Below, one piece after another: positions 9,839 through 37,301 of a stretch of 37,425 nt of DNA (position 1 is its first letter; each line of letters starts with the position of its first letter). A program made the translations under genes and the position numbers. Under the pieces are notes generated by a model. The model did not search any database. It saw nothing but the letters and a program-made list of their open reading frames with translations, and was not told where the DNA came from. Source of the DNA: a virus; IMG/VR virus record IMGVR_UViG_3300031951_000536, positions 1-37,425 of that record; one strand, 5' to 3'.

Positions 9839-11425
9839 TTAGGGAGTTTTTCTACCTTCGCCCTTTGGGTTTCTACCAACAACTGTAGACGAACTGTCAG
9901 AGTTGTTGTTTGTTCTCTCTGCACTTCTTGATCTGTTGGTTGTTGCTTCCGCTGCTGCCTCTGGCTTGAGTTGGAGAACCTCATCCCCACCTTCTCGCTG
10001 TGGCATATCCAAAACAACTCTTGCTTCGTTTGGAGTTATGATCTGATTCTTTACATATCTCTCAAGAATCTGAGATTGTGCAATTTCATCAGTTAGGGTC
10101 AACTCGTTAAATACAAACTCAACAATGTCTGTCTTTTCACGAATAATCTTGTTAATCATTTTTTCTAATTGTCTTTGTGCTGGTCTTGCTACCTGCTCTT
10201 TAAAGGTGCGATCCTGTGCAAGTGCTGCTGCAATAGAACCAGAATCGCCACCTCCTAATTTTGAAAGTGGAACTTGATGTGCTACCAGAATGTCGTCACG
10301 GTTTTGTTTTCTATATTCTTTAAATGATCCGTCTTGTATTCCGTCTTCAATTGGCTCCATCTTAAATTCTACCTTGTTGTTTTCAGTATCACCTGGTAGT
10401 GGGATGTATAGTGTTCTGTGTGATTGGCCACGAAGATTTGTCTGTAAGAATCTAAACATCTTGTCTTCTGCGTCTCCAGAAAGTTTTGCACCCTTTAGTG
10501 TGACAACGTATCTTGGTACAGCCTTATTTGCAAAGTAGTCAATATTGTATTGTGATGCCAGAGAGTCACCGTGGAGTGAGTTAATAGCAGACATAATGTC
10601 TGGAACTCCGTAGAATGTGTTTAATGGCGAGTATTGCTTAAAGTGAATAATTTCATTTGGTCTAGAATCAGTAGTAAGAGGGTTTGGATTTCTTGCTCCA
10701 AAATTACGGAAATAAACAATTTTGTTTCCAATAATCTGAACATATCCATCCTTTAACCTTCTTACTCTCATGGTTGTTGCTGGAATGTGACCAACATATC
10801 CGATCTCTCCACGAGTAGTTCTTCCTATTTCTAAATAGCCATTTCCAGTTGATTGTAGGTCTGTATAAACCTTTTCCATAGTAGCAGTAAATGAGTCATC
10901 GTCATTAAGAGACTCTAGCCAATCACGAAGTTCTATCTTTGTTCTTTCAATTCTCTTTCTTGCTTTTTGTGTTGCACTATTATCTTCAGATGCCTCTAGT
11001 CTAAGCATTGTTCTTGGAGAAACCTTAAACTCATATCCCAAACCAACAATGTTTTCTACCTTTGCATCAATTGCTGCGTGGTTTGCAAAAGATGTATCAT
11101 AATAGTTTGCCAATTCATAAAGATTCCATGGTGGGGTGATTACATCAAACATTCCATAGCCGTTTACGTATACTAGGCCTGGATTAATTTCTTTTGATTG
11201 TGCTCCATCAATACCGCTTTTTCCTGCCAACGCTGCTGTTGTATATTGCTGTGTTGGCTGTAATGCTTTTGTAGAAAGTCTACTTGTTCTACGCTTAAAG
11301 TTTGCATCTAAGCCATCTAATGTTTTTAATGTGTCCCAATTATTTGCAAATGGATCAGATTTTGAAAAAGGATCTTCCTTTTTAATAGCATCGTCAATCT
11401 TTGCGCTTATTGTATATTCTTCCAT
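9839..11425 (-). CDS. Portal protein (PBSX-family type)
   Basis: The 528-residue protein contains NPGLVYVNGYGMFDVITPPW, NLYELANYYDTSFANHAAID, a stem/clip region with STGNGYLEIGRTTRGEIGYV, PNEIIHFKQYSPLNTFYGVP, and a helical C-terminal half with DILVAHQVPLSKLGGGDSGS. These are typical of PBSX-type portals of siphophages. The portal forms the dodecameric DNA gate of the head. Upstream ATGs exist (11443, 11437) and the frame is open to 11488, but the ATG at 11425 lies one base after the upstream gene's TAA, favouring coupled initiation there. The tail is low-complexity (Asn/Ser-rich). It precedes the prohead protease gene. Confidence 0.88.
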   Translation of the reverse strand: MEEYTISAKIDDAIKKEDPFSKSDPFANNWDTLKTLDGLDANFKRRTSRLSTKALQPTQQYTTAALAGKSGIDGAQSKEINPGLVYVNGYGMFDVITPPWNLYELANYYDTSFANHAAIDAKVENIVGLGYEFKVSPRTMLRLEASEDNSATQKARKRIERTKIELRDWLESLNDDDSFTATMEKVYTDLQSTGNGYLEIGRTTRGEIGYVGHIPATTMRVRRLKDGYVQIIGNKIVYFRNFGARNPNPLTTDSRPNEIIHFKQYSPLNTFYGVPDIMSAINSLHGDSLASQYNIDYFANKAVPRYVVTLKGAKLSGDAEDKMFRFLQTNLRGQSHRTLYIPLPGDTENNKVEFKMEPIEDGIQDGSFKEYRKQNRDDILVAHQVPLSKLGGGDSGSIAAALAQDRTFKEQVARPAQRQLEKMINKIIREKTDIVEFVFNELTLTDEIAQSQILERYVKNQIITPNEARVVLDMPQREGGDEVLQLKPEAAAEATTNRSRSAERTNNNSDSSSTVVGRNPKGEGRKTP

Positions 11426-11426
11426 T

Positions 11427-11813
11427 TTATTCTTCATCTCCATATTTTGCAATTGTATCTTTTGCTGCTTGTACAGCACCCAAGTCATTTAGTGATGGAA
11501 TAAGTCCTGACTTCATTCTGTCTACTTGCTCAGAATACTCTTCTTCTGATACCCTGGTCCCGCCTGGAACAAAAATTGCTTCGCCATCTCCAGGGTCTCC
11601 GTAATACATTGCAACCTTTTTTAGTTCTGCAATTTTGGAAATGTCTCCCTTTTCAGATGGAATATTTAAAACCGATCCATGTCCGTCTGTAAACCACTTG
11701 CCATTTGACCTTTTATATACATAAAGACCCCAATTATAGTTCTTTTCAATTACTTTACGTCGTACATTTTGTACAATTGGCTTACCAGTTTTTGGGTTTA
11801 TTAATGAATCCAT
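11427..11813 (-). CDS. Conserved-looking protein of unknown function before portal
   Basis: The 128-residue product begins MDSLINPKTGKPIVQNVRRK and has a central YNWGLYVYKRSNGKWFTDGH and a region GDPGDGEAIFVPGGTRVSEE. It has no signal peptide or membrane segment. It ends one base before the portal ATG and should be co-translated with it. TGGTATACT ends 7 nt before its own ATG with no Shine-Dalgarno sequence, so it probably begins a leaderless transcript. In other phages this position holds the large terminase, which this clearly is not. I do not recognise a family; a small accessory head or packaging protein is possible. Confidence 0.5.
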   Translation of the reverse strand: MDSLINPKTGKPIVQNVRRKVIEKNYNWGLYVYKRSNGKWFTDGHGSVLNIPSEKGDISKIAELKKVAMYYGDPGDGEAIFVPGGTRVSEEEYSEQVDRMKSGLIPSLNDLGAVQAAKDTIAKYGDEE

Positions 11814-11820
11814 GACAATA

Positions 11821-11829
11821 AGTATACCA
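11821..11829 (-). promoter_or_regulatory. Extended -10 (TGGTATACT) before the small pre-portal gene
   Basis: The box ends 7 nt before the ATG at 11813, just after the stop codon of the LamG-like gene. It likely starts the portal-protease-capsid transcript without a leader. Confidence 0.6.
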
Positions 11830-11831
11830 TA

Positions 11832-14800
11832 TTAAACTGGATCAACAGTAAATTTGTTCCAGAAGATGTCGTTATATAATGAATATGCATAGTTTCCTAC
11901 GCTTATTGGAACATTATCTCCTACGATTATCTTGTTTGTTCCAGTATAACTTTTATAAACTTCTGATGGATTTACGCCATAATAACTTGTTTCTGCCAAA
12001 ACAAGAACCTTGTTCCAATTAAATGGTCCAATATGCCAGAATTCCCAATCTAAAGATTGACCAGCCAACACCTTCACCCTAAACCAAGGTCTTTCTGATA
12101 TATTTTGAACCTCTTGTAGATTAGTAGATTGATAATAAGATATGCTGTTGAAAACCAACGGTCCAGTTAATCTTATTGCTCCTTCAAAATATGAAAAATC
12201 AAGACTATCGGCAAAATTAATACCTAAGAATCCCCACTCTTTAAGAGTTAAAACTGGCTCTTTAACAATCTTTCCATTCCAATAGAATCCTATGCCGTTT
12301 TGAACTAATCCAGTTTTTGCATCAATTGCATATATTTTTGCTCTTCTACCACTTGGGTCGCTTGCAACCATATAAAATTTTATATTAGAAGATTTACTTT
12401 CTATTTCAAATATTTGTGTTGGAGCGTATGGAAAATAGTCTCCATCAAATCTTATAGCCATTTGTGATGCAATCACTTTAAAATTATTTGCTCTACTAGA
12501 ATTTATTGGAATAGACAGCCCACGATTTACTAAAGGATCATACTGTCCTTTAATTTGAATACCGCTGGTTTTTGTAAGATAAAGATATGGAGATGATCCA
12601 GTGTAGATGGCAAACGGATTATTCTTTTTAAAATTATAATAAATTCCAGTTTTTGTATATGGATAAATAGGAGTGCCAAATCTAGTACCAATTGGACTTG
12701 CATCCGATTCATTTAATGCTTGAGACGCATAAGAAAGTTTTTTAATATTAACATTGTTTGTTTTAGAATCTTTAACATTAATATCTATATGTGTAACAAT
12801 GGACAAATCATTAAAATCAACACCTGCTGGAGGATAAATAATCATATTATCAACAACTTCATATTTTGTTGTCATCCAATCTGATTTTGGAATTAAAATA
12901 CCATTTCTAGATGGTCTTTCTGTCTTTGTAAAATAAAATGGTGTTTGATTTGCTCCTAGTTCAGTATATTGAAATGTAACATATGTTTTTACAATTGCCC
13001 CGTCCGTATCATATCGGTAATCTTTTGCAATTTTATTTTTTAAGTCTTCATAATCATTATATCCAGTAAATAAATAATTATCTAATGATTCATATGTTCT
13101 TTGAACTGGAAGACCGTATTCATTTGCAAGTTCTGCATATGTCCATTCTGCTGGATCAGTTTCTATTGCAATTGTTTTTGATGGTATTGGATAGTCAATA
13201 TTGAATTGAATAAAATCAAGATCAAAATACTGATCTCCCCTTTTATCTAAAACAGATTCAGCAAAATATGTTAATGGTATATTGTCTTCCCAATATGCAT
13301 TTGCAGATATGTTAAGTTTATATGTATCAAACAACTGACCTGGAACCAATGTATATGTTGCTGTATGATCTAAAAGAAAATCTTCATCATCAACAAAAAC
13401 TCCACCGCCGCTTATTGCACCATTCGCTGTGCCTGTTATAGATCCATATGGTGGTAATGAGGTTGTATCTATTCCTCCATCTATATTGATTAATTGATTA
13501 TTTTGATAAACAGAAAACAAGTCTTCGTTCCAAACTGGAACACCCAATTCATTAAACAAAGATCTAATTTTTTGAAAATTATACTTGCTGCAAAATCCTA
13601 TTTTATATATTTTGCCAGTAAAAGTTTCTGTGTTATTATTTTTACCACCGACATACATTCGTAAGTCAGATAAAGATCCAAAAAAATCGGCTGCTGGATT
13701 TCCAAATCTTGAAACAAATGCTGGTATATTTAAACCAATATCAACTAATTCTCCTGGCTCTGCAATTAAAGGAGAGTATATATTTTTTATTACTCCGTCG
13801 TAATTAATGATATATGATATTTGATTATTAAGTAATTCTATTGCAAAATAACTGCTACTGTTTTCTTTTTCAATTCTAAACAATGTTTGCTTTGTAGAAG
13901 AAGATTGTGGTAACCTAAAACATCCATAAAATGCAGAAACTGTTTCTTTTAAAAAATCAAAGTTTTCAAAAAATAGATATCCAGACACATTGTTCCAAGA
14001 AGTGTTAGGTCTAAAAGAAAAGAAATTTACTGAATCAGATGACTGGACCAGTTTGCAATCTGATAATAATTCATCTTCTGTTTTTGAAGATAGCACTATT
14101 TTGGGAAGAGGGGCAGATGAAACAGATAAGGATTTATTTACAATAGAAGTATTATCATTAAATGCCTGCTGCCATCCACCTATTTTTGGATATGAATAAT
14201 TTGAAGTATAGTCTGCAAAAGCATAATCAACAAATACTGATGTTCCGCTATAAGATGTATTAATATTCTCTGGTATTTCAACGCCTTGACCAAAAACAAA
14301 TCTTCTTTTTGCTAATGCGGTTGCGACTACGTATGGATAAATACCGACACAGTCAATTTCTATTGGATAAATATCTTCATATGCATAAAAACCTATCCAG
14401 TCTTGATCTTTATTATTTTCATTAAGCATATTTGGAACAGATATAGAGTCTGGATCATATTCTAAAGATATTACTTCCTGACCATTAATAACTAAAGAAA
14501 TAACATCTTTACCAATTCTTAAATGTACCAACATTGGCCTTGTCCACTCACCAACATAATATGTTTTATAGTTAGAGCCAATTTTTAATCCTATTGATGG
14601 TCCATCTACATATATACCATCATCTGATGAAATTGGACCAATAATTCTTTTTGTTTGATTTGTATAAGAATTTATTCTAAGCCAAGTCTCAAGAGTATAT
14701 TCTCTAAATCTTCCTGATTCGTTTAAGAATCCTACTCCAGGAATAATTAGTGAAGGGTTTGAGCCATTTGGGTAAAGGGCTGTTAAACTTGATGTTCCAT

Positions 14801-17695: not shown

Positions 17696-18502
17696 TTAGT
17701 CTTGCTTTTTATCTTTCTTTGCCCATTCTAATTTTTGAATTGCCTGCTGTCTACGAACTTCTTTTTCTTGCTCATCCCATTTGTCTAAAGTTTCCTGATC
17801 ATATTCAATTTCTGCATAATCCCAAAAAGATACCATCGTATATCTTGTTCCTTTTAGAATTTCAGTAACACCGTGAATATTTTCTACGCCTCCAGGAAAT
17901 ATGTAATAAGAGTAGGCATTAGGCTTAAAAGATAAATATGGATCACTCCAGACTGGAACTTTTTTACCATCCATATCAACACTACCAGAATCCTCTCCAG
18001 TATCATTTACAAAATATAACTCTCCACCTTCATAGTTATCATTTAAATACAGAATTCCAACATACTTATTTATTTCAAAAGCATTTGGATTTCCTTCAAA
18101 ATCTGAATTATCAGAATGTGGCGAAGCAAATCCTCCCTCATCCCATTTTTGTGCGTGAGATGTATTTGGTCTAACCTTTCTTTCAAAAACTAACTCTACT
18201 GCTTCTTGATATTTATTTTTTAAATCATCAAAAAATTTTCCATATAGGCCATGCTTTTCAAGTTCTGGATCATCTGGGGCTAAACCCATTCCAAGAGAAC
18301 CGTAAAATGCAATATCTCCCCACATGTCAGCCTTTGACTCCCAATATGAAATCATTGATTCTGCAGTTTTACTATTTATAAAATTTGGGATCTCTACAAT
18401 TTTATTGTGTGTTATTCCTAAAACACCTTTTGTTTTATTTAAATCTATTTCATCATTTTTATGATATATAAAGTTTTCTTTTTGTATTTTTTCAATTATC
18501 AT
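17696..18502 (-). CDS. Prolyl-4-hydroxylase-like 2OG/Fe(II) oxygenase (copy 5 of the left cluster)
   Basis: The 268-residue protein has the P4H-type double-stranded beta-helix with a complete site: iron ligands H129 and D131 (ASPHSDNSD), LYLNDNYEGGELYF, iron ligand H210 (NIHGVTEILKGTR) and the 2-oxoglutarate-binding R220 ten residues later. The N-terminal 120 residues are helical and start the substrate platform, as in collagen-type P4H. It should hydroxylate a proline (or related) side chain using O2, Fe(II) and 2OG in the cytoplasm. A long charged C-terminal helix (KWDEQEKEVRRQQAIQKLEW) is unusual. It overlaps the next upstream gene by 11 nt and is the last gene before the nrdJ promoter. 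Confidence 0.82.
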   Translation of the reverse strand: MIIEKIQKENFIYHKNDEIDLNKTKGVLGITHNKIVEIPNFINSKTAESMISYWESKADMWGDIAFYGSLGMGLAPDDPELEKHGLYGKFFDDLKNKYQEAVELVFERKVRPNTSHAQKWDEGGFASPHSDNSDFEGNPNAFEINKYVGILYLNDNYEGGELYFVNDTGEDSGSVDMDGKKVPVWSDPYLSFKPNAYSYYIFPGGVENIHGVTEILKGTRYTMVSFWDYAEIEYDQETLDKWDEQEKEVRRQQAIQKLEWAKKDKKQD

Positions 18503-19316
18503 TTTTCATTCCTTCTAATTGAATACGCATAAATTCTGACTGCTCTCTGTCAACCTTTTCTTTTTGCATTTTATACCACTCATCTTTACCGTACTTTTCT
18601 TCTCCATCAAACCACTCTTTAGATCCTGCATAAGGCTTTTGATAAAAACATCTAATTAAATATTTGTCTTCTTTATTTATTGCTTTTACGCCATGCAAAT
18701 ATTTGCCTTCATCAGACAACAGTTCTGGATGCCCTGAAGGAAAAACAAGGACATCTCCCGCTTTTGGCTTATAATTAAGAAAAGTTTTATTCGGCAATCT
18801 AAAAACTATGTCTCCACCATCGTAGTCGTCATTTAAATACATAGTGCAAGTTAAAATAAATTTATTTCCAGGCCAATGACCTTCTAGCGTAACGTAGTCT
18901 GTATGATATGTCATTTCAAGGCCAATATTTTTAAGTTCTTCTGGAGCAACATTTTTATGGTTATATTTTGATATTGATGGACCCATTATAACCCAGTCAT
19001 TACCTTTTTCTAATCCACGATTTTTTAAATAGGTTAATGTTGCAACATTAAAGGCATCATTAATCTCATTCAATAAAGACTGCTCTTCTAAATATGTTGG
19101 CTCGTTAGAAAAGTCTTTTGTCATATCTAAATAATTTCCTATTTGCCATACATAACTTCCAAATCTACTCCAGTCTCTCCAGTCTTTAAATAAAAAAGTA
19201 GAGGACTGATCTTTTTCAGATTGTTTAAATATTTCTACCATTCTTTTAGCATTTGGAATTAATCCAGTAAAAACAGAAATATTCGTATCTATATTTTTTA
19301 TTTCAAAACTTTTCAT
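18492..19316 (-). CDS. Prolyl-4-hydroxylase-like 2OG/Fe(II) oxygenase (copy 4)
   Basis: This 274-residue enzyme shows H138-x-D140 (MTYHTDYVTLEG), TMYLNDDYDGGDIVFRLPNK, the conserved KPKAGDVLVFPSGHPELLS, H208 (YLHGVKAINKEDKY) and K218 ten residues later as the likely 2OG ligand. All metal and cosubstrate positions are intact. The N-terminal 130 residues differ from the neighbouring copies and include two Trp-rich segments (KDWRDWSRFGSYVW), suggesting a different substrate. GAGG lies upstream of the ATG, which sits 1 nt after the preceding stop. The C-terminal tail is charged and helical. Substrate unknown. Confidence 0.8.
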   Translation of the reverse strand: MKSFEIKNIDTNISVFTGLIPNAKRMVEIFKQSEKDQSSTFLFKDWRDWSRFGSYVWQIGNYLDMTKDFSNEPTYLEEQSLLNEINDAFNVATLTYLKNRGLEKGNDWVIMGPSISKYNHKNVAPEELKNIGLEMTYHTDYVTLEGHWPGNKFILTCTMYLNDDYDGGDIVFRLPNKTFLNYKPKAGDVLVFPSGHPELLSDEGKYLHGVKAINKEDKYLIRCFYQKPYAGSKEWFDGEEKYGKDEWYKMQKEKVDREQSEFMRIQLEGMKNDN

Positions 19317-19317
19317 A

Positions 19318-19992
19318 TTATTTTACCTCTTTGTGAGACATGATTGTGAAAAAAAATGGCACAACATATCTAATGCCTTTTGTTATTTCAGTTACTCCAT
19401 GTATATAATTTTTATCTCCTGGGAAAAAATATGCTGCTCCAGCCTTTGGTTTAAATTGTATTTTTTGATTTGGAAAATATAGTTCTCCACCTTCGTAGTC
19501 ATCGTTTAAATAAAATAGCCCAGCAATATCGTACCATGGAAAATCATTAGGTTTCCCAGCATTTTCTCCTTCATGAAGTTCTTTGTCTGCATGTGGCATC
19601 TGCAACTGACCTGGTAACCATCTAACAATTGCAGGTGGTGTTGGATGAGCATCTACATTAAAAAAATTATCTACTTCTATTTTTAATCTTTGTTGCATAT
19701 TTGAAATAATTGGAACAATATCTGAATTATTCTTATTTAAACTTGGTGGAGTTGCAACTCTATTTTCCCAATACTTATGATCATAAATAACAGTACCCTC
19801 TTCATTATAATGAGTTTCTGTTATATCCCAAATTGTTATTTTTTTACCAGCATCTGATAAAAAATTTAACTCTTCGGCTGTCATAAAGTTTTCTCTTGCC
19901 TGAATATTTCCTGCAGATGTGCCAAAAAATCCAGATGGGGTTATAGATTTTGGATTATTTGTACCGCTATTCAGATATTCTACACTATTCAT
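19318..19992 (-). CDS. Prolyl-4-hydroxylase-like 2OG/Fe(II) oxygenase (copy 3)
   Basis: The 224-residue form starts at the ATG at 19992 (MNSVEYLNSGTNNP), because TGGTATAAT ends exactly 6 nt before it, although the frame is open to 20085. The site is complete: H134-x-D136 (QMPHADKELHEG), GLFYLNDDYEGGELYFPNQK, KPKAGAAYFFPGDKNYIHG with H198, and R208 ten residues on. These are the iron and 2-oxoglutarate ligands of P4H-type enzymes. The protein is a compact single-domain oxygenase. It is separately promoted although it lies inside the cluster, and the promoter overlaps the region after the upstream stop. Confidence 0.82.
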   Translation of the reverse strand: MNSVEYLNSGTNNPKSITPSGFFGTSAGNIQARENFMTAEELNFLSDAGKKITIWDITETHYNEEGTVIYDHKYWENRVATPPSLNKNNSDIVPIISNMQQRLKIEVDNFFNVDAHPTPPAIVRWLPGQLQMPHADKELHEGENAGKPNDFPWYDIAGLFYLNDDYEGGELYFPNQKIQFKPKAGAAYFFPGDKNYIHGVTEITKGIRYVVPFFFTIMSHKEVK

Positions 19993-19998
19993 TTTTAT

Positions 19999-20007
19999 AT
20001 TATACCA
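19999..20007 (-). promoter_or_regulatory. Extended -10 (TGGTATAAT), leaderless start of oxygenase copy 3
   Basis: The box ends 6 nt before the ATG at 19992 and fixes the start of that gene. It lies in the 19-base gap after the upstream cupin-like gene. Confidence 0.6.
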
Positions 20008-20011
20008 TTCA

Positions 20012-20746
20012 CTATTCGTATTTTCTTTGTTCCCAAACTTCATTTTTATATATTCCACCGTCTGGTTTGCGGTATTTTGCAGCATTTGCTGCTTTTTGTC
20101 TCATTAGTTCTAAAGCATTTTCTTGTTCAATTATTTCTGAAGTCCAGTTTTCTCTTTTAAATGGTATCACTTGAGAATAAATAGTGCCAGCGGGGATAAC
20201 TCCCTCAAACCCTTCCGAAATAAAAAATGGTAAAGATCCTGGAAGATGAACTTTATCATTATCAATTATTCCACTTGTTACTAAAAATGGAAGTTCAAAT
20301 CTATTAAATGGGTGACAATAAAGTGCGCTATATCCTTCTGGAAGTTTGATTTGCCAATCACAGGTCAATGCAAAATGTTCTTTATAATATCCCCTCGGAT
20401 GCTCAAACTGTGGCATTTCTTGTCTTACTTGAATAAAATCTTTATACTTATCGTCTAAAACTTTGTGCTTAATTCCAGATTCTGTCATATAAAACTCAAT
20501 ATCGCATGGAGTATTTAAAGAATACCCAGTTCCCATAATATCAAAAATTGCTGGACAGGCCTTCCATGTTGGTATTTTTCCATTATCTGGTCCTATTACA
20601 AAAGAATCATCAATAGGAGATTTAAAGAATCTATCTGCTTTTCTAAACCAATCTGGTATTGTTTTAAGTATTGGCTTTGGAGTAGACACACTTTCTTTTG
20701 ATAGCCAAACTCTATTTGCTAAAAATGTTATTTTTTCTGTATTCAT
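20012..20746 (-). CDS. Cupin-like protein of unknown function (possibly DUF6065), downstream paralogue
   Basis: The 244-residue product has WKACPAIFDIMGTGYSLNTP, DIEFYMTESG, LPEGYSALYCHPFNRFELPF and FEGVIPAGTIYSQVIPFKRE. The order (short Cys/Pro strand, DI-F strand, P-x-G-Y loop, then an isolated IPAGT turn) parallels the upstream gene, so the two are distant paralogues. They resemble the cupin-like DUF6065 family found in phages and some bacteria; I cannot confirm this by search. No HxD site is visible, so a catalytic oxygenase role is not supported; a ligand-binding or accessory role is possible. Its ATG overlaps the upstream stop (TAATG). Confidence 0.5.
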   Translation of the reverse strand: MNTEKITFLANRVWLSKESVSTPKPILKTIPDWFRKADRFFKSPIDDSFVIGPDNGKIPTWKACPAIFDIMGTGYSLNTPCDIEFYMTESGIKHKVLDDKYKDFIQVRQEMPQFEHPRGYYKEHFALTCDWQIKLPEGYSALYCHPFNRFELPFLVTSGIIDNDKVHLPGSLPFFISEGFEGVIPAGTIYSQVIPFKRENWTSEIIEQENALELMRQKAANAAKYRKPDGGIYKNEVWEQRKYE

Positions 20747-21486
20747 TATTTATTAAAGTCCATTCCTTTAATTATAGCATTTGGATTTCTATAGTCAGAA
20801 AACTTTAACTTTAAACTTTTAGTCTCATGACTTCCCTGTTTATTTCCTAAATGATCAACAGCATCTCTATAAAAATTGGTCCACTCTCCACCTTTTGTTA
20901 TTTCTCCAGATCGTTTCCCATACTCTGAAATTTTTTGATAATATTCTTGACTAAAGTTTTCATCGTGCAAATTAACTTCTGTATTTTGAATATCTGTTAA
21001 ACTTATTGGAACAATAGAGACAATTGGTGTATTTGCTGGAATTGTTATTACCTCATTTGCCTTTGTTATTTTCCAAGCATATGGTAATGCTGTATCTAAA
21101 ACAGATGTACTAATTATTGTTGTAAAACCTTGTACACCGTCTATAAACTGATTTGGAACTGGCATTAACAAAAGACTAACATTTTCATCAGTTCTAAAAT
21201 TTAAAGTGCTATTAAAACTTATAGTTGCATTTGCTCTATTTGTAAAAACATACTCTTCTCCATTTAAAACCTTTACATGTGAGTCTGATGAATCTGATAT
21301 TCCGTCCCAAATAAAAGAAATATCTTCTGGATAAGAGAATGTCCACCCTAAAGTATTTGCCAATGACACTGGGAAACATCTATATGCATGTTTATCAAAT
21401 GTATTGTCCATCCAATCTCTTTTTATAGGAACTGTAGAAAAATTTACCTTAGAGTTTTTTGGCTGATATACATTAATGCTAGACAC
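20746..21486 (-). CDS. Cupin-like protein of unknown function (possibly DUF6065), upstream paralogue
   Basis: This 246-residue protein starts with GTG, overlapping the upstream stop (TAGTG), and carries YRCFPVSLANTLGWTFSYPE, DISFIWDGISD, FRTDENVSLLLMPVPNQFID, and an ITIPANTPIVSIVPISLTDI turn. The block order matches the next gene downstream, so gene duplication is likely. DUF6065-like is a best guess from overall pattern. No clear metal site is seen. Because it is embedded in a coupled operon of P4H-like oxygenases, a role linked to their substrate or cofactor is plausible but not shown. Confidence 0.5.
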   Translation of the reverse strand: MSSINVYQPKNSKVNFSTVPIKRDWMDNTFDKHAYRCFPVSLANTLGWTFSYPEDISFIWDGISDSSDSHVKVLNGEEYVFTNRANATISFNSTLNFRTDENVSLLLMPVPNQFIDGVQGFTTIISTSVLDTALPYAWKITKANEVITIPANTPIVSIVPISLTDIQNTEVNLHDENFSQEYYQKISEYGKRSGEITKGGEWTNFYRDAVDHLGNKQGSHETKSLKLKFSDYRNPNAIIKGMDFNK

Positions 21487-22187
21487 TAGTCGCCAGTTTC
21501 TCTATAAATTTCTGGAGTGTGAAATTTTGCACTATAGTCTAACATTGTAACTATAGAATATTTAGTTCCAGATTTTACTGGCATTGCTCTGTGGCTATAC
21601 ATATAGTTTGAAGGGAATATGTATAAGTCTCCAGCCTTTGGCTTTACCAAAAGATCTTGTAATTGAAAATGTAATCCGCCCTCTTCGTAGTCATCATTAA
21701 CATATGCTACTAAGGATACTGTACAGTTATACGAAAATCCGTGGTCATGATGATATTGAAAATGTTGTCCTTTATTATATTTAATAAAATTCATTGCTTC
21801 CCAATATCTTAAATCTCCAATATTAAAAAATCTTCTGTAGTGATCAACTGCTGGTTTTTTTCTATCATAACAATCTTGCCATAAAGATTGAAGATTTAAT
21901 GATTCTTGACTTAAATCATCTTGTATGTCTGTTTTTTTAAATTTAAAATCTACACAATCTCTATAGTCTGGCATAGTTTGCATATAACCAACATATGCTG
22001 GTTGCCAAGAATATCTTTCATTTTCTGTTGCAAGATTACTTTCAAGTCTATTAATTATGTCTAAACTTTTTGGAAGAACATCTCTATATACAAAAATTCC
22101 ATTTCCAAGATTTTCAAAAGATGACCAGGTTTGTTCAGGAATTTTGCCTGTAACATTGCTGTTTATGCTAGTGCCTATTTGATCCAT
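21486..22187 (-). CDS. Prolyl-4-hydroxylase-like 2OG/Fe(II) oxygenase (copy 2)
   Basis: The 233-residue protein has H146-x-D148 (FQYHHDHGFSYN), AYVNDDYEEGGLHFQLQDLL, KPKAGDLYIFPSNYMYSH with H199, and K209 ten residues later, the complete Fe/2OG site of P4H-type enzymes. It is closely similar to the next upstream gene (both have HHDHG/HGDHG, KPKAGD, FPSN-x-x-Y, GTKYS), so these two form a recent-looking pair. A TGATATAAT box and GAAGGG precede the ATG. It begins a coupled operon with the two cupin-like genes. Confidence 0.83.
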   Translation of the reverse strand: MDQIGTSINSNVTGKIPEQTWSSFENLGNGIFVYRDVLPKSLDIINRLESNLATENERYSWQPAYVGYMQTMPDYRDCVDFKFKKTDIQDDLSQESLNLQSLWQDCYDRKKPAVDHYRRFFNIGDLRYWEAMNFIKYNKGQHFQYHHDHGFSYNCTVSLVAYVNDDYEEGGLHFQLQDLLVKPKAGDLYIFPSNYMYSHRAMPVKSGTKYSIVTMLDYSAKFHTPEIYRETGD

Positions 22188-22211
22188 TTTATTACCCTTC
22201 TATATGTATAA

Positions 22212-22220
22212 ATTATATCA
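22212..22220 (-). promoter_or_regulatory. Extended -10 (TGATATAAT) for oxygenase copy 2
   Basis: Its first three bases are the TGA stop codon of oxygenase copy 1. A leader of about 18 nt with GAAGGG precedes the ATG at 22187. Confidence 0.6.
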
Positions 22221-22922
22221 TAACTGCGACTTATGATGTAAATCGTTATAATCTGTCATTATTACTACTGAATACTTTGTACCGTCAAAAATTTCATGAG
22301 ATGAGTGCTCATAAACAAAGTTTGATGGAAAAATAATAATGTCGCCAGCCTTTGGTTTTATTTTTAATAACTGTCTAGGAAATTCTATTTCTCCACCTGT
22401 ATAATTATCATTTAAATAAACTACAGCAGATATTGTGCATGAATAGTATGGTCCGTGATCACCGTGAAGTTTAAAATATTTGCCTGGTAAATATTTTACA
22501 AAATTAAATGCTTCTTTATAAAACATCTGTAAATGCCATAAAGACTGATAATCTTCTAGGCATTTATCTAGTGCATCCTCTACCTCTTTATGAATATCAA
22601 ACATATCTTGATCAAATTTTAATATAGTTCCCAAATGTTCTCTTTTATATTTTATATCTACACAATTTCTTACATGATATGTATCCTCTTTATCATTTAC
22701 TTGTGCTCCATTCCAAGACATTTCAAAAGATTCACTCATTGCTCCACGTTCAAGTCTATCGATTATGCTTAGACATTGGTCTTTTGGTATAGCATTTCTA
22801 TAAAGGTTAATTCCATACTCTAAGTTAATAACTTCAATATTATTTTTAATTAAACGATTTGACAATCTGTTTTTTGTATTTTCTAATCTTGGAATATCAT
22901 ACCATTCTATTTTTTTTTCCAT
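22218..22922 (-). CDS. Prolyl-4-hydroxylase-like 2OG/Fe(II) oxygenase (copy 1 of the left cluster)
   Basis: This 234-residue enzyme opens the left oxygenase cluster. It has H153-x-D155 (FKLHGDHGPYYS), VVYLNDNYTGGEIEFPRQLL, KIKPKAGDIIIFPSNFVYEH with H206, and K216 ten residues on. Active-site positions are intact. TGGTATAAT ends 7 nt before the ATG and is one arm of a perfect inverted repeat, suggesting controlled leaderless expression. It is the nearest oxygenase to the Phe/Pro/Cys-rich fibre encoded immediately upstream. Substrate is not known from sequence. Confidence 0.83.
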   Translation of the reverse strand: MEKKIEWYDIPRLENTKNRLSNRLIKNNIEVINLEYGINLYRNAIPKDQCLSIIDRLERGAMSESFEMSWNGAQVNDKEDTYHVRNCVDIKYKREHLGTILKFDQDMFDIHKEVEDALDKCLEDYQSLWHLQMFYKEAFNFVKYLPGKYFKLHGDHGPYYSCTISAVVYLNDNYTGGEIEFPRQLLKIKPKAGDIIIFPSNFVYEHSSHEIFDGTKYSVVIMTDYNDLHHKSQL

Positions 22923-22996: not shown

Positions 22997-23896
22997 TTAT
23001 ACAGATCCGCCACCACTAAAGTATGGGAACCAAGGACAGAACGATGGTGGGAAGAACGGACAGAAGTTCGGTGGGAAGAACGGACAGAAGTTCGGTGGGA
23101 AGAACGGACAGAAGTTCGGTGGGAAGAATGGTGGGAAGAATGGGAAGAACGGACAGAATGATGGTGGGAAGAATGGTGGGAAGAATGGGAAGAACGGACA
23201 GAATGATGGTGGGAAGAATGGTGGGAAGAATGGGAAGAATGGGAATGATGGTGGGAAAAATGGGGGAGTAGTATTAACAGAACCAGTTGTTGCAGTTAAT
23301 GAAGATCCATTTGCGTTAGTTGCAGTGATAGTATATGTTTGTGATCCTGGAGAACTGGCAGAAGGTGTGTTATCTGTTGCATCATAGTATGTTTGTGATC
23401 CACTTACTGTTCCAGCAATATTATTATAAGATGTTCCATCAGATCCAGTAATTGAATAATTTCCTAATGTTTTTCCACCATTTGCTGGCGTAGTCCATAT
23501 AATTCTGTTTACGTTTGCTGATTGTGCATTTACACTTGGACTTTGGGGAGCCTGTGGTACTGTTGTAATAGGAATAGAACTAGATGGGCTTGATGGAGCA
23601 GATGTTCCAGAAGCATTTGTTGCTGTTACCGTAAAAGTATAATTTGTAGAACTAGATAAGCCAGTTATTGTTATTGGTGAAGACGATCCTGATGCTGTTA
23701 AAGATCCTGGAGAAGATGTTACTGTATAACTTGTTGCTGCTGGAGAACCTGCTGGAAGAGAAAAAGAAACTGATGCTGCTCCATTATTGTATGGTCTATT
23801 TGTTCCTACATCTGTTGCTATAACAGACACAGGTGGTTTTGGCTCTAAAAAGTCATTCTGTGCTAAAGCCTTTGAACCTAATTCTTTCTTTGCCAT
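22997..23896 (-). CDS. Fibronectin type III protein with Phe-Pro-Pro/Phe-Cys-Pro repeat tail
   Basis: The 299-residue protein has two FN3-like beta-sandwich domains (residues about 20-112, with SYTVTSSPGSLTASGSSSPI and YTFTVTATNASGTSAPSSPS; and about 115-208 with PQSPSVNAQSANVNRIIW and YTITATNANGSSLTA). From about residue 209 it becomes a tail made of FFPPFFPP, SFCP and NFCP units with six cysteines, ending PWFPYFSGGGSV. Such tails could form stiff, disulphide-linked stalks or membrane-binding tips. The FN3 part suggests a surface-exposed fibre. It lies between a fibre gene and the first P4H-like gene. GGGAG precedes the ATG. The repeats are encoded by very regular 24-bp and 45-bp tandem DNA. 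Confidence 0.7.
   Translation of the reverse strand: MAKKELGSKALAQNDFLEPKPPVSVIATDVGTNRPYNNGAASVSFSLPAGSPAATSYTVTSSPGSLTASGSSSPITITGLSSSTNYTFTVTATNASGTSAPSSPSSSIPITTVPQAPQSPSVNAQSANVNRIIWTTPANGGKTLGNYSITGSDGTSYNNIAGTVSGSQTYYDATDNTPSASSPGSQTYTITATNANGSSLTATTGSVNTTPPFFPPSFPFFPFFPPFFPPSFCPFFPFFPPFFPPSFCPFFPFFPPFFPPNFCPFFPPNFCPFFPPNFCPFFPPSFCPWFPYFSGGGSV
23047..23260 (-). repeat. 24-bp and 45-bp tandem repeats encoding FFPP/FCP units
   Basis: Three exact 24-bp units (23047-23118, eight residues each) are followed by two exact 45-bp units (23119-23208) and a diverged third. They encode the Phe/Pro/Cys tail of the FN3 protein and are prone to copy-number change. Confidence 0.85.
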
Positions 23897-29916: not shown

Positions 29917-29946
29917 TTGACTTTTGACTAAATTTTGTGTTATACT
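29917..29946 (+). promoter_or_regulatory. Sigma70-type promoter of the lysis gene
   Basis: TTGACT at 29917-29922 and TATACT at 29941-29946 with an 18-nt spacer and TGT before the -10 (extended). Transcription would start near 29953 and read the secreted lytic enzyme. Confidence 0.75.
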
Positions 29947-29972
29947 TGGTAGTAACACCTACCAAGGTGTTA
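29945..29972 (+). promoter_or_regulatory. Two mutually exclusive inverted repeats at the lysis gene start site
   Basis: CTTGGTAG/CTACCAAG (29945-29966) overlaps the -10 and start site. TAACACC/GGTGTTA (29953-29972) shares bases with it in the leader. They may be an operator plus an RNA hairpin in the 5' leader. Confidence 0.5.
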
Positions 29973-29993
29973 TTGTTTTCTAAGGAGGAAACT

Positions 29994-30554
29994 ATGATTA
30001 AATTTATCGAAAGAAACAAAGAGATCATTAGCACACTCAGTATATTGGCTTTAGTAGTGACTTTATCAAATGCTGCTAATGCTGAAGAAATAACTATAAA
30101 GAACAATTTAAGTACTGAACAGGCTCAAAAAGCAGAAAACGCCTCGAAAGAGGTTTTTTTGGTTTCTAAGGCTAAAAAATTAGAGAGTTTTGAAAATAAG
30201 ACTTCTCTGACCGATATCGAATTAAAGCAACTCCTTTCCCTTGTAGGGTTTAAGGGGCAAGATCTTGTGGTGGCTTGGGCCATTGCCAAGAAAGAATCTA
30301 ATGGTAGGCCTTTGGCATTTAATGGCAACCATAAGACTGGGGACTCCTCTTATGGAATGTTCCAAATAAATATGATTGATGAATTGGGTCCAGACCGTAG
30401 AACTAAGTTTGATCTTGATTCTAATGCTGAGTTATTTAATCCCGTCAAAAATGCAGAAATCGCATACTATATGACAAATGGCGGAGAAGATTGGTCTTCA
30501 TGGAAAGGTATTACGCCTAAGACCAGAGAATGGATGAAAAAATTTCCTAAGTAA
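29994..30554 (+). CDS. Secreted lytic transglycosylase/lysozyme-like protein
   Basis: The only plus-strand gene. The frame opens at 29937, but AGGAGG precedes the ATG at 29994, giving 186 residues. It has a signal peptide: basic RNKE, hydrophobic IISTLSILALVVTLSNA, and an A-N-A cleavage site before EE (about 30/31). The mature part has an SLT-like fold signature: AWAIAKKESNGRPLAFN with the likely catalytic E101, then GDSSYGMFQINMIDELG and VKNAEIAYYMTNGGEDWSSW. It would cut peptidoglycan outside the membrane, so as an endolysin it would use the Sec pathway. No holin was recognised nearby. It has a strong promoter with overlapping inverted repeats and a shared terminator. A host-derived resuscitation-type enzyme is an alternative. 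Confidence 0.75.
   Translation: MIKFIERNKEIISTLSILALVVTLSNAANAEEITIKNNLSTEQAQKAENASKEVFLVSKAKKLESFENKTSLTDIELKQLLSLVGFKGQDLVVAWAIAKKESNGRPLAFNGNHKTGDSSYGMFQINMIDELGPDRRTKFDLDSNAELFNPVKNAEIAYYMTNGGEDWSSWKGITPKTREWMKKFPK
30142..30160 (+). other. Terminator-like CCTC-GAAA-GAGG stem with seven T inside the lysis gene
   Basis: A 4-bp stem with a GAAA tetraloop followed by TTTTTTT lies in frame at about codons 50-56. It could attenuate transcription or be a slippage site; the stem is short. Confidence 0.35.
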
Positions 30555-30571
30555 ATAAACATAATCTAAAG

Positions 30572-30601
30572 GCACCTATGGAAACCCTGTAGGTGCTTTT
30601 T
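30572..30601 (+). terminator. Terminator after the lysis gene
   Basis: GCACCTA and TAGGTGC form a 7-bp stem with an 11-nt loop, followed by TTTTT. It separates the convergent cupin gene; the minus-strand T-run is weak. Confidence 0.7.
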
Positions 30602-31187
30602 AGTTTCTCAAAATAAGATTTATTGCTACCCTTGGGGCTTTTATTGTTTCAATTTCATGTACCAGGTCTTTTGGAACAAAAATAAAATCACCCTCAACAA
30701 CATGAGTTTCATTTTCTAAATTTGGACCTGTTCTCCATATCATTTCACCTTTAACTACCCACTGGAACTGATCAACATAGTCACTATGCTTGCTTCCAAC
30801 CACACCACGATTTTTCATAAGAGATACCAATGCAAAATTTCCATCGTATACTTCTGAAGAATACTGAGAAATACCCCATTTTGTTACTGGTAATAATTCT
30901 GGGATAATTGATAGATATTTGTCTTCTGGATCATAAAGTTGAAACGCCAATCTAGACCAAAATCTGCATTTAAGACTCATGTCTGAAGATTCTCCTTCAA
31001 TAAAATCATTTAAGCGATATGATCTATGTGGAAATTTTTCTAAATCTTCATCAACATACTGAGAAACCATTGACATAATTGTATCTAATGATGGAAGAGT
31101 TGGAAAAGGATTTTTAAATACGTGAACCCTTTTTTCTATAATTGCCTGTCTAACAAGATTCATGTCTATTGCTGATAAATCTGACAT
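30600..31187 (-). CDS. Cupin/JmjC-like Fe(II)-dependent oxygenase
   Basis: The 195-residue protein has H134-x-D136 in GSKHSDYVDQFQWVVKGEM and H177 in GDFIFVPKDLVHEIE, 41 residues apart, which fits the compact cupin/JmjC-type metal site rather than the P4H spacing. FQWVVKGEMIWRTG is the expected first cupin strand pair, and the PKDLVHE turn the second. The N-terminal half (LPSLDTIMSMVSQYVDEDLE) is helical. It is likely an Fe(II) oxygenase, perhaps 2OG-dependent; the 2OG residue is not certain. It ends the right-hand oxygenase operon, after the glycosyltransferase, and converges on the lysis gene. Confidence 0.6.
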   Translation of the reverse strand: MSDLSAIDMNLVRQAIIEKRVHVFKNPFPTLPSLDTIMSMVSQYVDEDLEKFPHRSYRLNDFIEGESSDMSLKCRFWSRLAFQLYDPEDKYLSIIPELLPVTKWGISQYSSEVYDGNFALVSLMKNRGVVGSKHSDYVDQFQWVVKGEMIWRTGPNLENETHVVEGDFIFVPKDLVHEIETIKAPRVAINLILRN

Positions 31188-31195
31188 ATTATATT

Positions 31196-32227
31196 TTAAC
31201 TTTCTTTCTCATTTATTTTATCAATATTTTCTTGAATTAAATTTAATGTTTCTTCTTCAGACAAATTGACAACGTTAATATAGTAATGATTTGTGCCAGA
31301 GTAGTCTACAAACTCTTTATAATGATACCTGTGATTTGGAATTGCTGAAATTTCAAAAATGTTTGTTTCTTTATTTCCCCAAAAAGAATGAAATTCCCAT
31401 GTACCAGATGTTCCAGCAATATTTTTTGCAGAACTAAAAATTTTTATTTGTTCTATTAAACTATAATCTTCTGGATAAATAATTTTCCATCCATTATCTT
31501 CAAATTTCTTTTGTATAAAGTCTTCTTTTTCGCAGTATCTCCATTTAGCAAACCAGAAATCTCCTTTATCTTTCTCAGATAAAAAATCTTTATTTGAATA
31601 AAATTCAATTTGCCATTTACGAAAGTTATTAAATCTTTGTCTTGAAACAAAAATATTTCCTTCTTTCTTATCACTATAAAATTCTTTAAAATTTTCTTTT
31701 AAGATATCTATTGCTAAATAATTGTATTTAAAATATTCACTTTGACCACAATGCATTTGTCCATTACCTCCGCCTACAGGGCAGTCACAAAATGGAAAGT
31801 ATTGTAGTGATCTTGTTGCACCATTGCTTGAATAAAACTCTTGTGGGAATGTAAGGTTCATGTCAAAAAACATTATTACCTTTTCAAAAGAATAATTTCC
31901 GACTGAAATATTAAAAACTTCTGGATTTTTATAGCCAAGGAAATACATTTGGTCTATTGTTACCTTGTTTTGATTAAAGTATCCGTTCTGAGTTTCATAA
32001 AAAAATGGCTTTATATTTTTATATTTTAATTGTAAAATTTTAAATTGTCCATATATGTCCATTAATGAATGACCAAATGCCGAATGTGTCTGAAACAAAT
32101 AGGTTTCTCCAGGTACATTAATTACTGGGCCATCATCATTTTTTATAAAAAAATTATTAATAGATACACTATCAAATACATAGTCAAAAAATTTTTCCTG
32201 TGTAATACCATCGCATGATAAAATCAT
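31196..32227 (-). CDS. Family 61-like (DUF563) glycosyltransferase
   Basis: The 343-residue protein carries a GT61-like set: FGHSLMDIYGQ (about 51-61; family H-x-L-x-D), NIFVSRQRFNNFRKW (about 191-205; the arginine-rich donor loop), GWKIIYPEDYSLIEQIKIFS (about 246-265) and NIAGTSGTWEFHSFWG (about 269-284), then IFEIS. The last block usually reads G-x-H-G-A; here it is G-T-S-G-T, so the usual His is missing. GT61 enzymes add sugars to Ser/Thr or glycans. The ATG at 32227 overlaps the upstream oxygenase stop (ATGA), so the pair is coupled, suggesting it acts on the same substrate. Confidence 0.68.
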   Translation of the reverse strand: MILSCDGITQEKFFDYVFDSVSINNFFIKNDDGPVINVPGETYLFQTHSAFGHSLMDIYGQFKILQLKYKNIKPFFYETQNGYFNQNKVTIDQMYFLGYKNPEVFNISVGNYSFEKVIMFFDMNLTFPQEFYSSNGATRSLQYFPFCDCPVGGGNGQMHCGQSEYFKYNYLAIDILKENFKEFYSDKKEGNIFVSRQRFNNFRKWQIEFYSNKDFLSEKDKGDFWFAKWRYCEKEDFIQKKFEDNGWKIIYPEDYSLIEQIKIFSSAKNIAGTSGTWEFHSFWGNKETNIFEISAIPNHRYHYKEFVDYSGTNHYYINVVNLSEEETLNLIQENIDKINEKES

Positions 32228-32826
32228 GTTAGCCAACTAACTACAGCATATCTCTGTCCAGAAATAACTGGGGATACTGAATGATTATACATATAGTTTG
32301 ATGGAAAGGCAATGAAGTCATTTGCTTTTGGCTTGTAAATAACATTAAACCTAGGGAAAACTATTTCTCCACCCTCGTAATTATCATTTAAATAATAAAT
32401 TGTAGACATTCTTCTATGAAAATCTTTATGATCATCTATATGATTTGTAAATTTTTGTCCTATTCCATATTTTAATATGCTATATTGATCATGCCAGGTT
32501 GTCGCTAAAGCATGATCTCTTTTATAATCATCTTCTAGTGGTGCTAAAAATTTTAAAAATAGATTTGATAGAGTTGCATTAAAAGCATCATGAAAAGTAT
32601 TAAAATTTGTTATTTCTATATTACTATATCGAACTGGAATAACAAGGGTATCTCTTGATTCTTTATTTACATATGAATCTCCATCTGTTTTTACTTTTGC
32701 TTCTATCCACTCTATTTTTGCACTAGAAGCGCCATCTTCTATATCAGATACAAGAGACTCATGGTTTTCTATTGCATTTGAATATACAATAATTCCTGGA
32801 GCAATTTGTTTTTTATTAATTACCAT
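32224..32826 (-). CDS. Prolyl-4-hydroxylase-like 2OG/Fe(II) oxygenase (right-hand copy)
   Basis: The 200-residue form is taken from the ATG at 32826, which overlaps the upstream stop (ATGGTAA); an ATG at 32841 would add five residues. It carries H129-x-D131 (FTNHIDDHKDFH), STIYYLNDNYEGGEIVFPRF, KPKANDFIAFPSNYMYNH with H182, and R192 ten residues on: all Fe and 2OG positions of a P4H-type enzyme. It is separated from the five left-hand copies by about 10 kb and is coupled to the zinc-ribbon-like gene before it and the glycosyltransferase after it. The three may act together on the nearby fibres. Confidence 0.82.
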   Translation of the reverse strand: MVINKKQIAPGIIVYSNAIENHESLVSDIEDGASSAKIEWIEAKVKTDGDSYVNKESRDTLVIPVRYSNIEITNFNTFHDAFNATLSNLFLKFLAPLEDDYKRDHALATTWHDQYSILKYGIGQKFTNHIDDHKDFHRRMSTIYYLNDNYEGGEIVFPRFNVIYKPKANDFIAFPSNYMYNHSVSPVISGQRYAVVSWLT

Positions 32827-33065
32827 TTTCCAATTGGGCATTCTGCTAGAGATAACTTAGTTTTTACTGCCATAAAACATCCACACTTTTTGCATTGTTT
32901 TGTTAACTTAATTAATTCTGGACATGACTGACAAATTGAATATCTTTTATTTGATATATCTTCGCTTACCCAATCAGTATCAGATTTAACTATGTCTATT
33001 GGTTTGACTTTAGATATTCTATTGTTTTCAATTATTTCTTTTATTTTATCTATACGATTTTGCAT
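32820..33065 (-). CDS. Small zinc-ribbon-like protein (DUF6171-like)
   Basis: The 81-residue product has six cysteines: C45 and C48 (SICQSCPE), C58, C61 and C63 (QCKKCGCFMAVKTK) and C76 (AECPIGKW). The CPE ... CKKCGCFM ... CPIGKW arrangement is common in small proteins of tailed phages and is likely to bind zinc. The N-terminus is helical. The ATG at 33065 is chosen because TATAAT ends 6 nt upstream, although the frame is open to 33086. It lies next to a P4H-like gene and overlaps it by 7 nt, so a role in protein-protein docking is plausible; function unknown. Confidence 0.65.
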   Translation of the reverse strand: MQNRIDKIKEIIENNRISKVKPIDIVKSDTDWVSEDISNKRYSICQSCPELIKLTKQCKKCGCFMAVKTKLSLAECPIGKW

Positions 33066-33071
33066 ATATAA

Positions 33072-33077
33072 ATTATA
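33072..33077 (-). promoter_or_regulatory. -10 box (TATAAT) fixing the start of the zinc-ribbon-like gene
   Basis: TATAAT ends 6 nt before the ATG at 33065 and lies within the in-frame extension, so the shorter protein is favoured. Confidence 0.5.
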
Positions 33078-33097
33078 CACTATCAAAATCTTATATA

Positions 33098-36580: not shown

Positions 36581-36589
36581 ATTATACCA
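36581..36589 (-). promoter_or_regulatory. Extended -10 (TGGTATAAT), leaderless start of the 160-residue gene
   Basis: The box ends 6 nt before the ATG at 36574, and its TAA is the stop codon of the collagen-like gene. Confidence 0.65.
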
Positions 36590-37301
36590 CGCTGACGTAG
36601 ATAGAATTCATAATTACGGATGAGTCGTAGTCGGTTCTAATTTGAGGTACCGCTCCAGAATTCCACATAGCGTTGTCCTCTATAAAGAAATGCTGTGTTA
36701 CATACATATTATAGACATACTGATATTTTAGGGATGCCACGAACTGCGAAATTTCGGTGGTAGATTTAGGGAAAAACGTCCTCATCCAAACCTCTGTATT
36801 GTTAGACTCAGTAGTGAGTTCAAAGTTATAGGTTACGAATACCTGTGATCCAACCTTAAGGCCATGGAAGTTAAGCATTCTTTGTTCTGCATTCCAGAGG
36901 CTGGTACATCCTTCTGGCAGGTATTTTTCATTTGTATTGCTACCCTTGGAATCTACCCAAACCTTTACCCATCCATCATCTCCATAATTGACACCAAGGT
37001 TTGTAGGCTTTCTATTTAGGTTAAAGTAAGAAGCCCATCCTGCTTGCTGTCCAGAAGAAGATAAAGAACTTAGTCCGTCTTTTCCAGGAGTTCCTCTTTC
37101 ACCTTTAGGTCCTGGCAATCCATCTTTACCAGCAGGTCCTTGTGGTCCAGGTATACCCGCAGGTCCGACGGGACCCATAGGACCAGGAACAGGAACATAA
37201 TTAATTAATACATCGGTATTTGTTGTCTGTGTTTCTACTACCTGCGCTGCGTAACTTGATTTTTTGCTTGTGGGAAAGTCCATGGATTTAGAAACTGACA
37301 T
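36582..37301 (-). CDS. Collagen-like fibre protein
   Basis: The 239-residue protein has a short N-terminal segment, then twelve uninterrupted Gly-X-Y triplets (residues 40-75, [19 protein letters not shown] and on). Y-position prolines at 51, 63 and 72 (GIP, GLP, GTP) are the classic sites for collagen-type prolyl 4-hydroxylation, and K66 is a Y-position lysine. A C-terminal globular domain follows ([20 protein letters not shown] ... [20 protein letters not shown]), probably the trimerising or receptor-binding head. Phages use such trimers as fibres. TGAGATAAT ends 6 nt before the ATG (leaderless). The combination with six P4H-like genes is notable. Confidence 0.78.

Follow-up and report, generated by a model that had tools for sequence, protein, structure and literature searches.

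Clustered 2OG-Fe(II) oxygenase and DUF6065 genes beside a Phe-Pro-rich tail protein gene: a candidate proline hydroxylation module of a freshwater-type phage

Oxygenases dependent on 2-oxoglutarate (2OG) and Fe(II) are common in aquatic phages and have no agreed substrate; DNA repair and 2OG metabolism are among the proposals (PMC3037559, PMC2984593). Up to five such enzymes are described from cyanophages (PMC3037559). Many EGLN3-like phage proteins are reported in the Phold paper (PMC12774648), the available text of which names no substrate, and bacteria and viruses are said, in the available part of PMC3368898, to lack the prolyl hydroxylases needed for collagen. The stretch analysed here (the window) is the entire IMG/VR virus record IMGVR_UViG_3300031951_000536 of 37,425 bases. 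Seven minus-strand genes at positions 17696-22922, flanked on one side by tail-fibre genes and on the other by a class II ribonucleotide reductase gene, probably represent a module for proline hydroxylation in the Phe-Pro-rich tail arm of the phage itself. The genes are linked to the gene of this arm, and the substrate and product are predicted.

The run codes for five 2OG-Fe(II) oxygenases, designated A, B, C, F, and G, and two DUF6065-type proteins, D and E. The first-pass annotation of this DNA had described a run of five oxygenases and considered one or two genes similar to prolyl 4-hydroxylase (P4H) as normal for a phage. Five PF13640 proteins are indeed present, but the run has seven genes, two of which (20012-20746 and 20746-21486) are of the DUF6065 type; the expected number per phage was wrong here, as 20 whole related or FFPP-bearing records have 1-11 PF13640 genes. 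In the PF13640 search of the whole record exactly six oxygenases were found, the sixth (H) outside the run, and each of the six exceeds the curated cut-off of 27 bits. All five oxygenases of the run match phrog_61. In the reading direction, G (22218-22922; PF13640, 1.1e-10) is followed by its closest paralogue F (21486-22187; 9.9e-13), by E and D, and then by C (19318-19992; 1.6e-8), B (18492-19316; 2.8e-9), and A (17696-18502; 1.1e-7). According to the locus layouts, B is variable, being absent or replaced in some relatives. The listed open reading frame (ORF) of C extends to 20085, but most alignment rows begin near Met32, at about position 19992; the listed start is too early, and the overlap of C and D is therefore an artefact.

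Directly before the run, and overlooked in the first-pass annotation, is the FN3 gene (22997-23896, minus strand), which codes for a tail-type protein with an fn3 domain (PF00041, E 1.2e-9) and a C-terminal end of (FFPP)n-type repeats. The protein with this Phe-Pro array (FFPP/SFCP-like) is the proposed substrate, and homologues of it with such arrays adjoin the cassette. The genes FN3-G-F-E-D-C-B-A are all on one strand with intergenic gaps of -11 to 74 nucleotides, spaced as in an operon. Array types in the relatives are FFPP, FPFFPP, FPPHFPPH, and FPPSFCP-like. In 153 distinct complete array ORFs, the arrays consist of 44.7% F, 44.4% P, and 3.9% Y. Median values are 62 residues for the array itself and 27 for the part of the protein after it. 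Some FN3 homologues have a Hint/intein-like domain after the array (L030:1189-2553, L047:3730-4971, L113:5740-6720, and others), with Cys as its first residue and in some cases HNK at its end; four of six scanned proteins match PF14890, PF07591, or PF13403, all below the Pfam cut-off. The Hint-like domain might free or join the arm by self-cleavage, and cleavage at the first residue would make the array the C terminus. FN3 and the DUF6065 query E had no match when searched in 50,697 phage records.

The linkage of cassette and array is well supported. Relatives were taken from two scans (the best 80 of 189 and the best 80 of 239 matches). Upstream sequence of at least 3 kb was available for 59 distinct core cassettes, and 57 of these have a Phe-Pro array ORF upstream on the same strand, at a median gap of 93 nucleotides. 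The two cassettes without an array are L029 and L008, the latter closely similar to the window and with a changed FN3 reading frame. From the array side, IMG/VR was scanned by the codon pattern of FFPPFFPPFFP, ignoring oxygenases, with an arbitrary 14-mer as control; 119 of at least 120 stretches were taken, and the results of both scans apply among the matches listed. With a minimum locus length of 8 kb, an oxygenase was present in 58 of 71 FFPP loci and in 0 of 73 control loci, and three or more were present in 39 of the 71. These 71 loci contained C+F+E+D (26), C+F+E (12), C+E (5), C alone (3), F+E+D (1), an oxygenase with D (3), other oxygenases (8), or none of these (13). The gene immediately downstream of the array ORF was an oxygenase in 32 of 90 cases. 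Oxygenase calls in the loci were made with profiles built from this family, which favour close relatives, and therefore the test was repeated on whole records with Pfam's own PF13640 model. In a picked subset of the retrieved whole records, all of at least 25 kb, this model matched 43 of 48 FFPP records and 5 of 39 random records, with three or more copies in 36/48 and 1/39, respectively. Within 17 records, 91 of 127 oxygenases are at most 10 kb from an array, compared with 44 expected on rotation, and 0 of 5000 rotations gave a number as high. These 17 are part of 20 whole records, seven of which derive from the cassette-based scan; G002 and G006 are without a pattern match, and the matches of G017 are in its unlisted part.

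Best plausible solved relatives in the profile searches of G and C were the P4H of B. anthracis and human P3H1. The C profile also matched two designed chlorophyll proteins, taken as chance. The AlphaFold model of G has a predicted local distance difference test (pLDDT) value of 87.9 and matches B. anthracis P4H (5hv0) in Foldseek at 4.9e-10 and P. putida P4H (4iw3) with Z 20.4 and 2.5 Å over 188 residues. Nearly all of the 50 structure matches listed for G are protein prolyl hydroxylases, including PBCV-1 collagen prolyl hydroxylase, PHD2, P. putida P4H on EF-Tu, and algal P4H-1 bound to a (Ser-Pro)5 peptide. For G, the P4H fold is thus the closest among solved structures. The predicted enzyme class is well supported for G by its model and for the other copies by the family profile.

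The HxD...H iron triad and the 2OG-binding R/K are intact in all six copies; in the relative sets of A, B, C, F, and G, they are complete in 374 of 375 rows, the sole miss being cut by a contig end. Comparison of close relatives gave a median dN/dS (ratio of nonsynonymous to synonymous substitution rates) of 0.13-0.26 for the oxygenases, 0.12 for D, 0.20 for E, 0.32 for FN3, and 0.05 for the reductase; these values are rough, since dS is about 1.4 for most genes and near saturation. Residues and substitution rates suggest that the oxygenase copies are active and subject to purifying selection. Relaxed selection was ruled out by the ratios together with the intact residues. The first-pass annotation was right that no metal ligand was lost and that all copies are probably under selection, and also that the first two copies in the reading direction, G and F, are alike and the remaining copies differ in N-terminal halves and tails. 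F and G share 38% identity (E 5e-45), and every other pair has 17-33% over global alignment.

Its proposal of a duplication burst within this phage does not agree with the phylogeny. In a quick tree of 70 rows, from which single-member clusters were excluded, A, B, C, F, and G are each in their own lineage common to many viral contigs, with 19 to 113 contig members in the largest relative clusters at 50% identity. A starred clade (98) contains both F and G, a common branch is possible for A and C (88), and B groups elsewhere. The deepest split is weak (79) and separates F, G, H, and four of six cyanophage references from A, B, C, and many others. Judged by this tree, the copies are old, separate lineages, with F and G as the sole clear sisters. 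Recent tandem amplification in this phage was ruled out, because each of the five belongs to its own lineage. A, B, and C may have come from old duplication or by separate entry, as the tree fits either. Substrate diversification among the copies is plausible.

Protein E (20746-21486, minus strand) matches the DUF6065 family PF19541 with 108.4 bits at a cut-off of 26.6 (5.1e-31). Protein D (20012-20746, minus strand) has no Pfam match at E 0.1 and is tied to DUF6065 by phrog_7084, which it matches at 1.4e-34 and E at 5.3e-7. The model of E (pLDDT 87.3) has a predicted dUTPase-like beta fold; all 50 listed matches are dUTPases, at a marginal level with the best Z of 8.7, and Foldseek gave no match at E 0.001 or lower. 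dUTPase activity is not claimed for E because of this marginal fold match. No paper was found under the family name DUF6065 in the library searched. The phage copies differ from the rest of the family in that they come as the diverged pair D and E. On alphaproteobacterial plasmids, DUF6065 genes are found with proline-rich surface neighbours (L418:4448-7729, L423:2180-5729, L420:5214-7762). In Sinorhizobium medicae the gene adjoins an autotransporter that contains a long stretch of polyproline, on pSymA of S. meliloti a polyproline autotransporter with a broken frame, and in Ochrobactrum a protein whose C terminus is collagen-like; at two Niveispirillum DUF6065 sites no proline-rich surface neighbour was seen. 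These neighbourhoods are a handful of sites with no control set.

In the proposed mechanism, the (FFPP)n arm would adopt an extended polyproline conformation when bound by the oxygenases, which would use Fe(II), O2, and 2OG to hydroxylate its prolines. Several enzymes would cover different contexts or positions of the array, and the DUF6065 proteins would help, possibly by binding the substrate. Once modified, the arm could give the tail fibre a C-terminal extension of higher solubility, stiffness, or stickiness for adsorption. Several points weigh against this mechanism. Neither an oxygenase nor a DUF6065 gene was found in 13 of the 71 FFPP loci, and 5 of the 48 FFPP records had no PF13640 match; these sequences are possible fragments. 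One 239-kb control record has seven scattered oxygenases, and cyanophages, where FFPP is not a known target, have them too. Arrays and oxygenases both lie in the tail region, so module position may account for some of the clustering. The F proteins form one cluster at 50% identity (clusters from all FFPP loci of any length), and Fisher p-values overstate independence because the contigs are related. Among the oxygenases, the fold evidence comes from the G model. Repeat chemistry and oxygenase set showed no covariation in 69 cassettes (Cys in the repeat and B-type, p 0.66; Hint and B-type, p 0.26; Hint and D, p 1.0).

The association could also be synteny inherited in one phage group, in which cassette and FFPP gene share a tail hot spot without mutual action. 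This is rather unlikely. It is favoured by the single F cluster and by the portal of the window, which is common to 20 of 33 tested records at 51-93% identity; of the other 13 records, 12 had no match (some are likely fragments), and G017 had 20% identity. A terminase profile used for lineage sorting matched only 6 of the 33. However, the order and membership of the cassette vary among the relatives while the core stays near the FFPP gene: B is gained, lost, or replaced, and D is on either side of F and G. Moreover, the same gene set is present in phages with the portal not found or only 20% identical. Records G010, G016, and G017 (76-105 kb) have the order fibre-FFPP-C-F-E and further oxygenases, with C and F about 39-48% and E 28-32% identical to those of the window. 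They represent a second phage lineage, in which no recognisable relationship of the portal was seen and which shares the set of FFPP, C, F, and E. Record G014 has an FFPP gene, two D-type DUF6065-like proteins, and a single distant H-type oxygenase (L416:8685-10078), so that D-type proteins accompany the array also where the C/F core is lacking. The stretch from G025 has a Phe-Pro gene, and neither a D-type protein nor an oxygenase was seen there. Two in-frame TAG codons (G022) and one TAA (G031) were observed in portal frames, and these could be due to a match past the gene start or to recoding.

Other targets of the oxygenases have to be weighed as well. The window codes on the minus strand for a collagen-like protein (36582-37301; PF01391, 7.8e-7) and a (TPV)n-rich protein with a short stretch of 12 residues, not shown here (33098-35476), and there is a small chance that other virion proteins such as these two are the substrates, with the FFPP gene mainly a neighbour. 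B. anthracis P4H and the PBCV-1 collagen prolyl hydroxylase, both among the best fold matches of G, agree with such substrates; against them, the core cassette adjoins the FFPP gene and not the collagen-like gene in the 57 of 59 cassettes, a count of which co-occurrence of the collagen-like gene is not part, and arrays alone predict oxygenases in the records (43/48 against 5/39). Hydroxylation of aromatic or cysteine side chains of the repeat instead of proline is very improbable. Enzymes dependent on 2OG can oxidise varied residues, and the arrays are rich in Phe, with some Tyr, but the nearest folds act on proline or lysine. Action of the oxygenases on DNA, on host lipids or sugars, or on 2OG metabolism in the course of infection is improbable, too. 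For the cyanophage enzymes, earlier authors proposed DNA repair and 2OG/nitrogen modulation (PMC3037559, PMC2984593), but G matches in fold almost exclusively protein prolyl hydroxylases, no AlkB-type repair enzyme is among its listed profile matches (C has one weak Tet-like row, E 0.59), and the genes sit by a tail gene.

Hydroxylation of arm prolines is thus preferred, and a more elaborate form of it is put forward only tentatively. In this form, hydroxylases and DUF6065 proteins would be a finishing line that turns a Phe/Tyr-Pro arm into a hydroxylated tail-tip polymer similar to extensin or mussel glue, Hint variants would cut themselves so that the arm is the C terminus, and DUF6065 would represent a novel kind of partner for proline repeats, which bacteria would use too, beside polyproline autotransporters and collagen-like surface proteins. 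The sixth oxygenase H (32224-32841; PF13640, 5.9e-17) has a GT61 glycosyltransferase gene beside it (31196-32236; PF04577, 2.6e-10), both on the minus strand. A role of GT61 in the module is only a guess, and glycosylation of hydroxyproline by its product is less likely than the rest of the proposed mechanism. At 30600-33086, H and GT61 are accompanied by a cupin-like protein (below the cut-off) and a Cys-rich DUF6171-like protein, with the (TPV)n protein upstream.

The source phage is a freshwater-type bacteriophage. No near match to the window was found among GenBank phages by megablast, and every protein match in them is below 60% identity. The portal is 48.7% identical to that of Streptomyces phage Coruscant (Stanwilliamsviridae), and the order ribonucleotide reductase, (LysM), LamG, small gene, portal, protease, and capsid is largely common to both, so the window, a fragment, is Stanwilliamsviridae-like in its related portal and common gene order. 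They differ in that Coruscant has a glycosyltransferase gene directly before the reductase and three more upstream, where the window has the oxygenase run; these four genes are at 9951-14447 of Coruscant (L399). An actinobacterial host is likely. The genome search for a host gave one contig only, inside a Chitinophagaceae metagenome-assembled genome, and was not conclusive; this contig, L398, has the order G-F-E-D-C and represents a host link or mis-binning. The sole clear long plus-strand ORF amid the minus-strand genes of its region, at 29937-30554, has a resemblance, judged by eye, to secreted lysis enzymes of the transglycosylase type.

The literature was searched for phage 2OG oxygenases with collagen-like proteins, for hydroxyproline in tail fibres or virions, and for 2OG enzymes of freshwater actinophages, and among the papers listed none deals with this system. 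The conserved cassette beside one repetitive tail-type protein gives a concrete candidate substrate and hence a testable question, and it points to chemical finishing of the tail fibres by the phages themselves. If true, hydroxyproline would be present in a phage tail, in contrast to the statement in PMC3368898, and DUF6065 would gain its first functional lead. The nearest viral precedent found is L230 of Mimivirus, a virus-encoded 2OG hydroxylase that modifies the virus's own repetitive structural protein; according to the available text of PMC9614988, this is one fused lysyl hydroxylase/glucosyltransferase of a eukaryotic virus, acting on lysine in collagen-like repeats. Cyanophage 2OG-Fe(II) oxygenases are similar in phrog_61 and in the weak grouping of F, G, and H with four of the six references, but the available parts of their accounts (PMC3037559, PMC2984593) describe no conserved cassette that combines them with DUF6065 and an FFPP tail gene. 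With the known P4Hs (3itq/5hv0, 4iw3, 3gze, 5c5t, and PHD2), the enzymes of the run have in common the double-stranded beta-helix and the HxD...H with K/R, but they are only about 13-20% identical to them, commonly come as five to eleven copies per phage record instead of a single enzyme, and have a Phe-Pro tail array as the proposed substrate.

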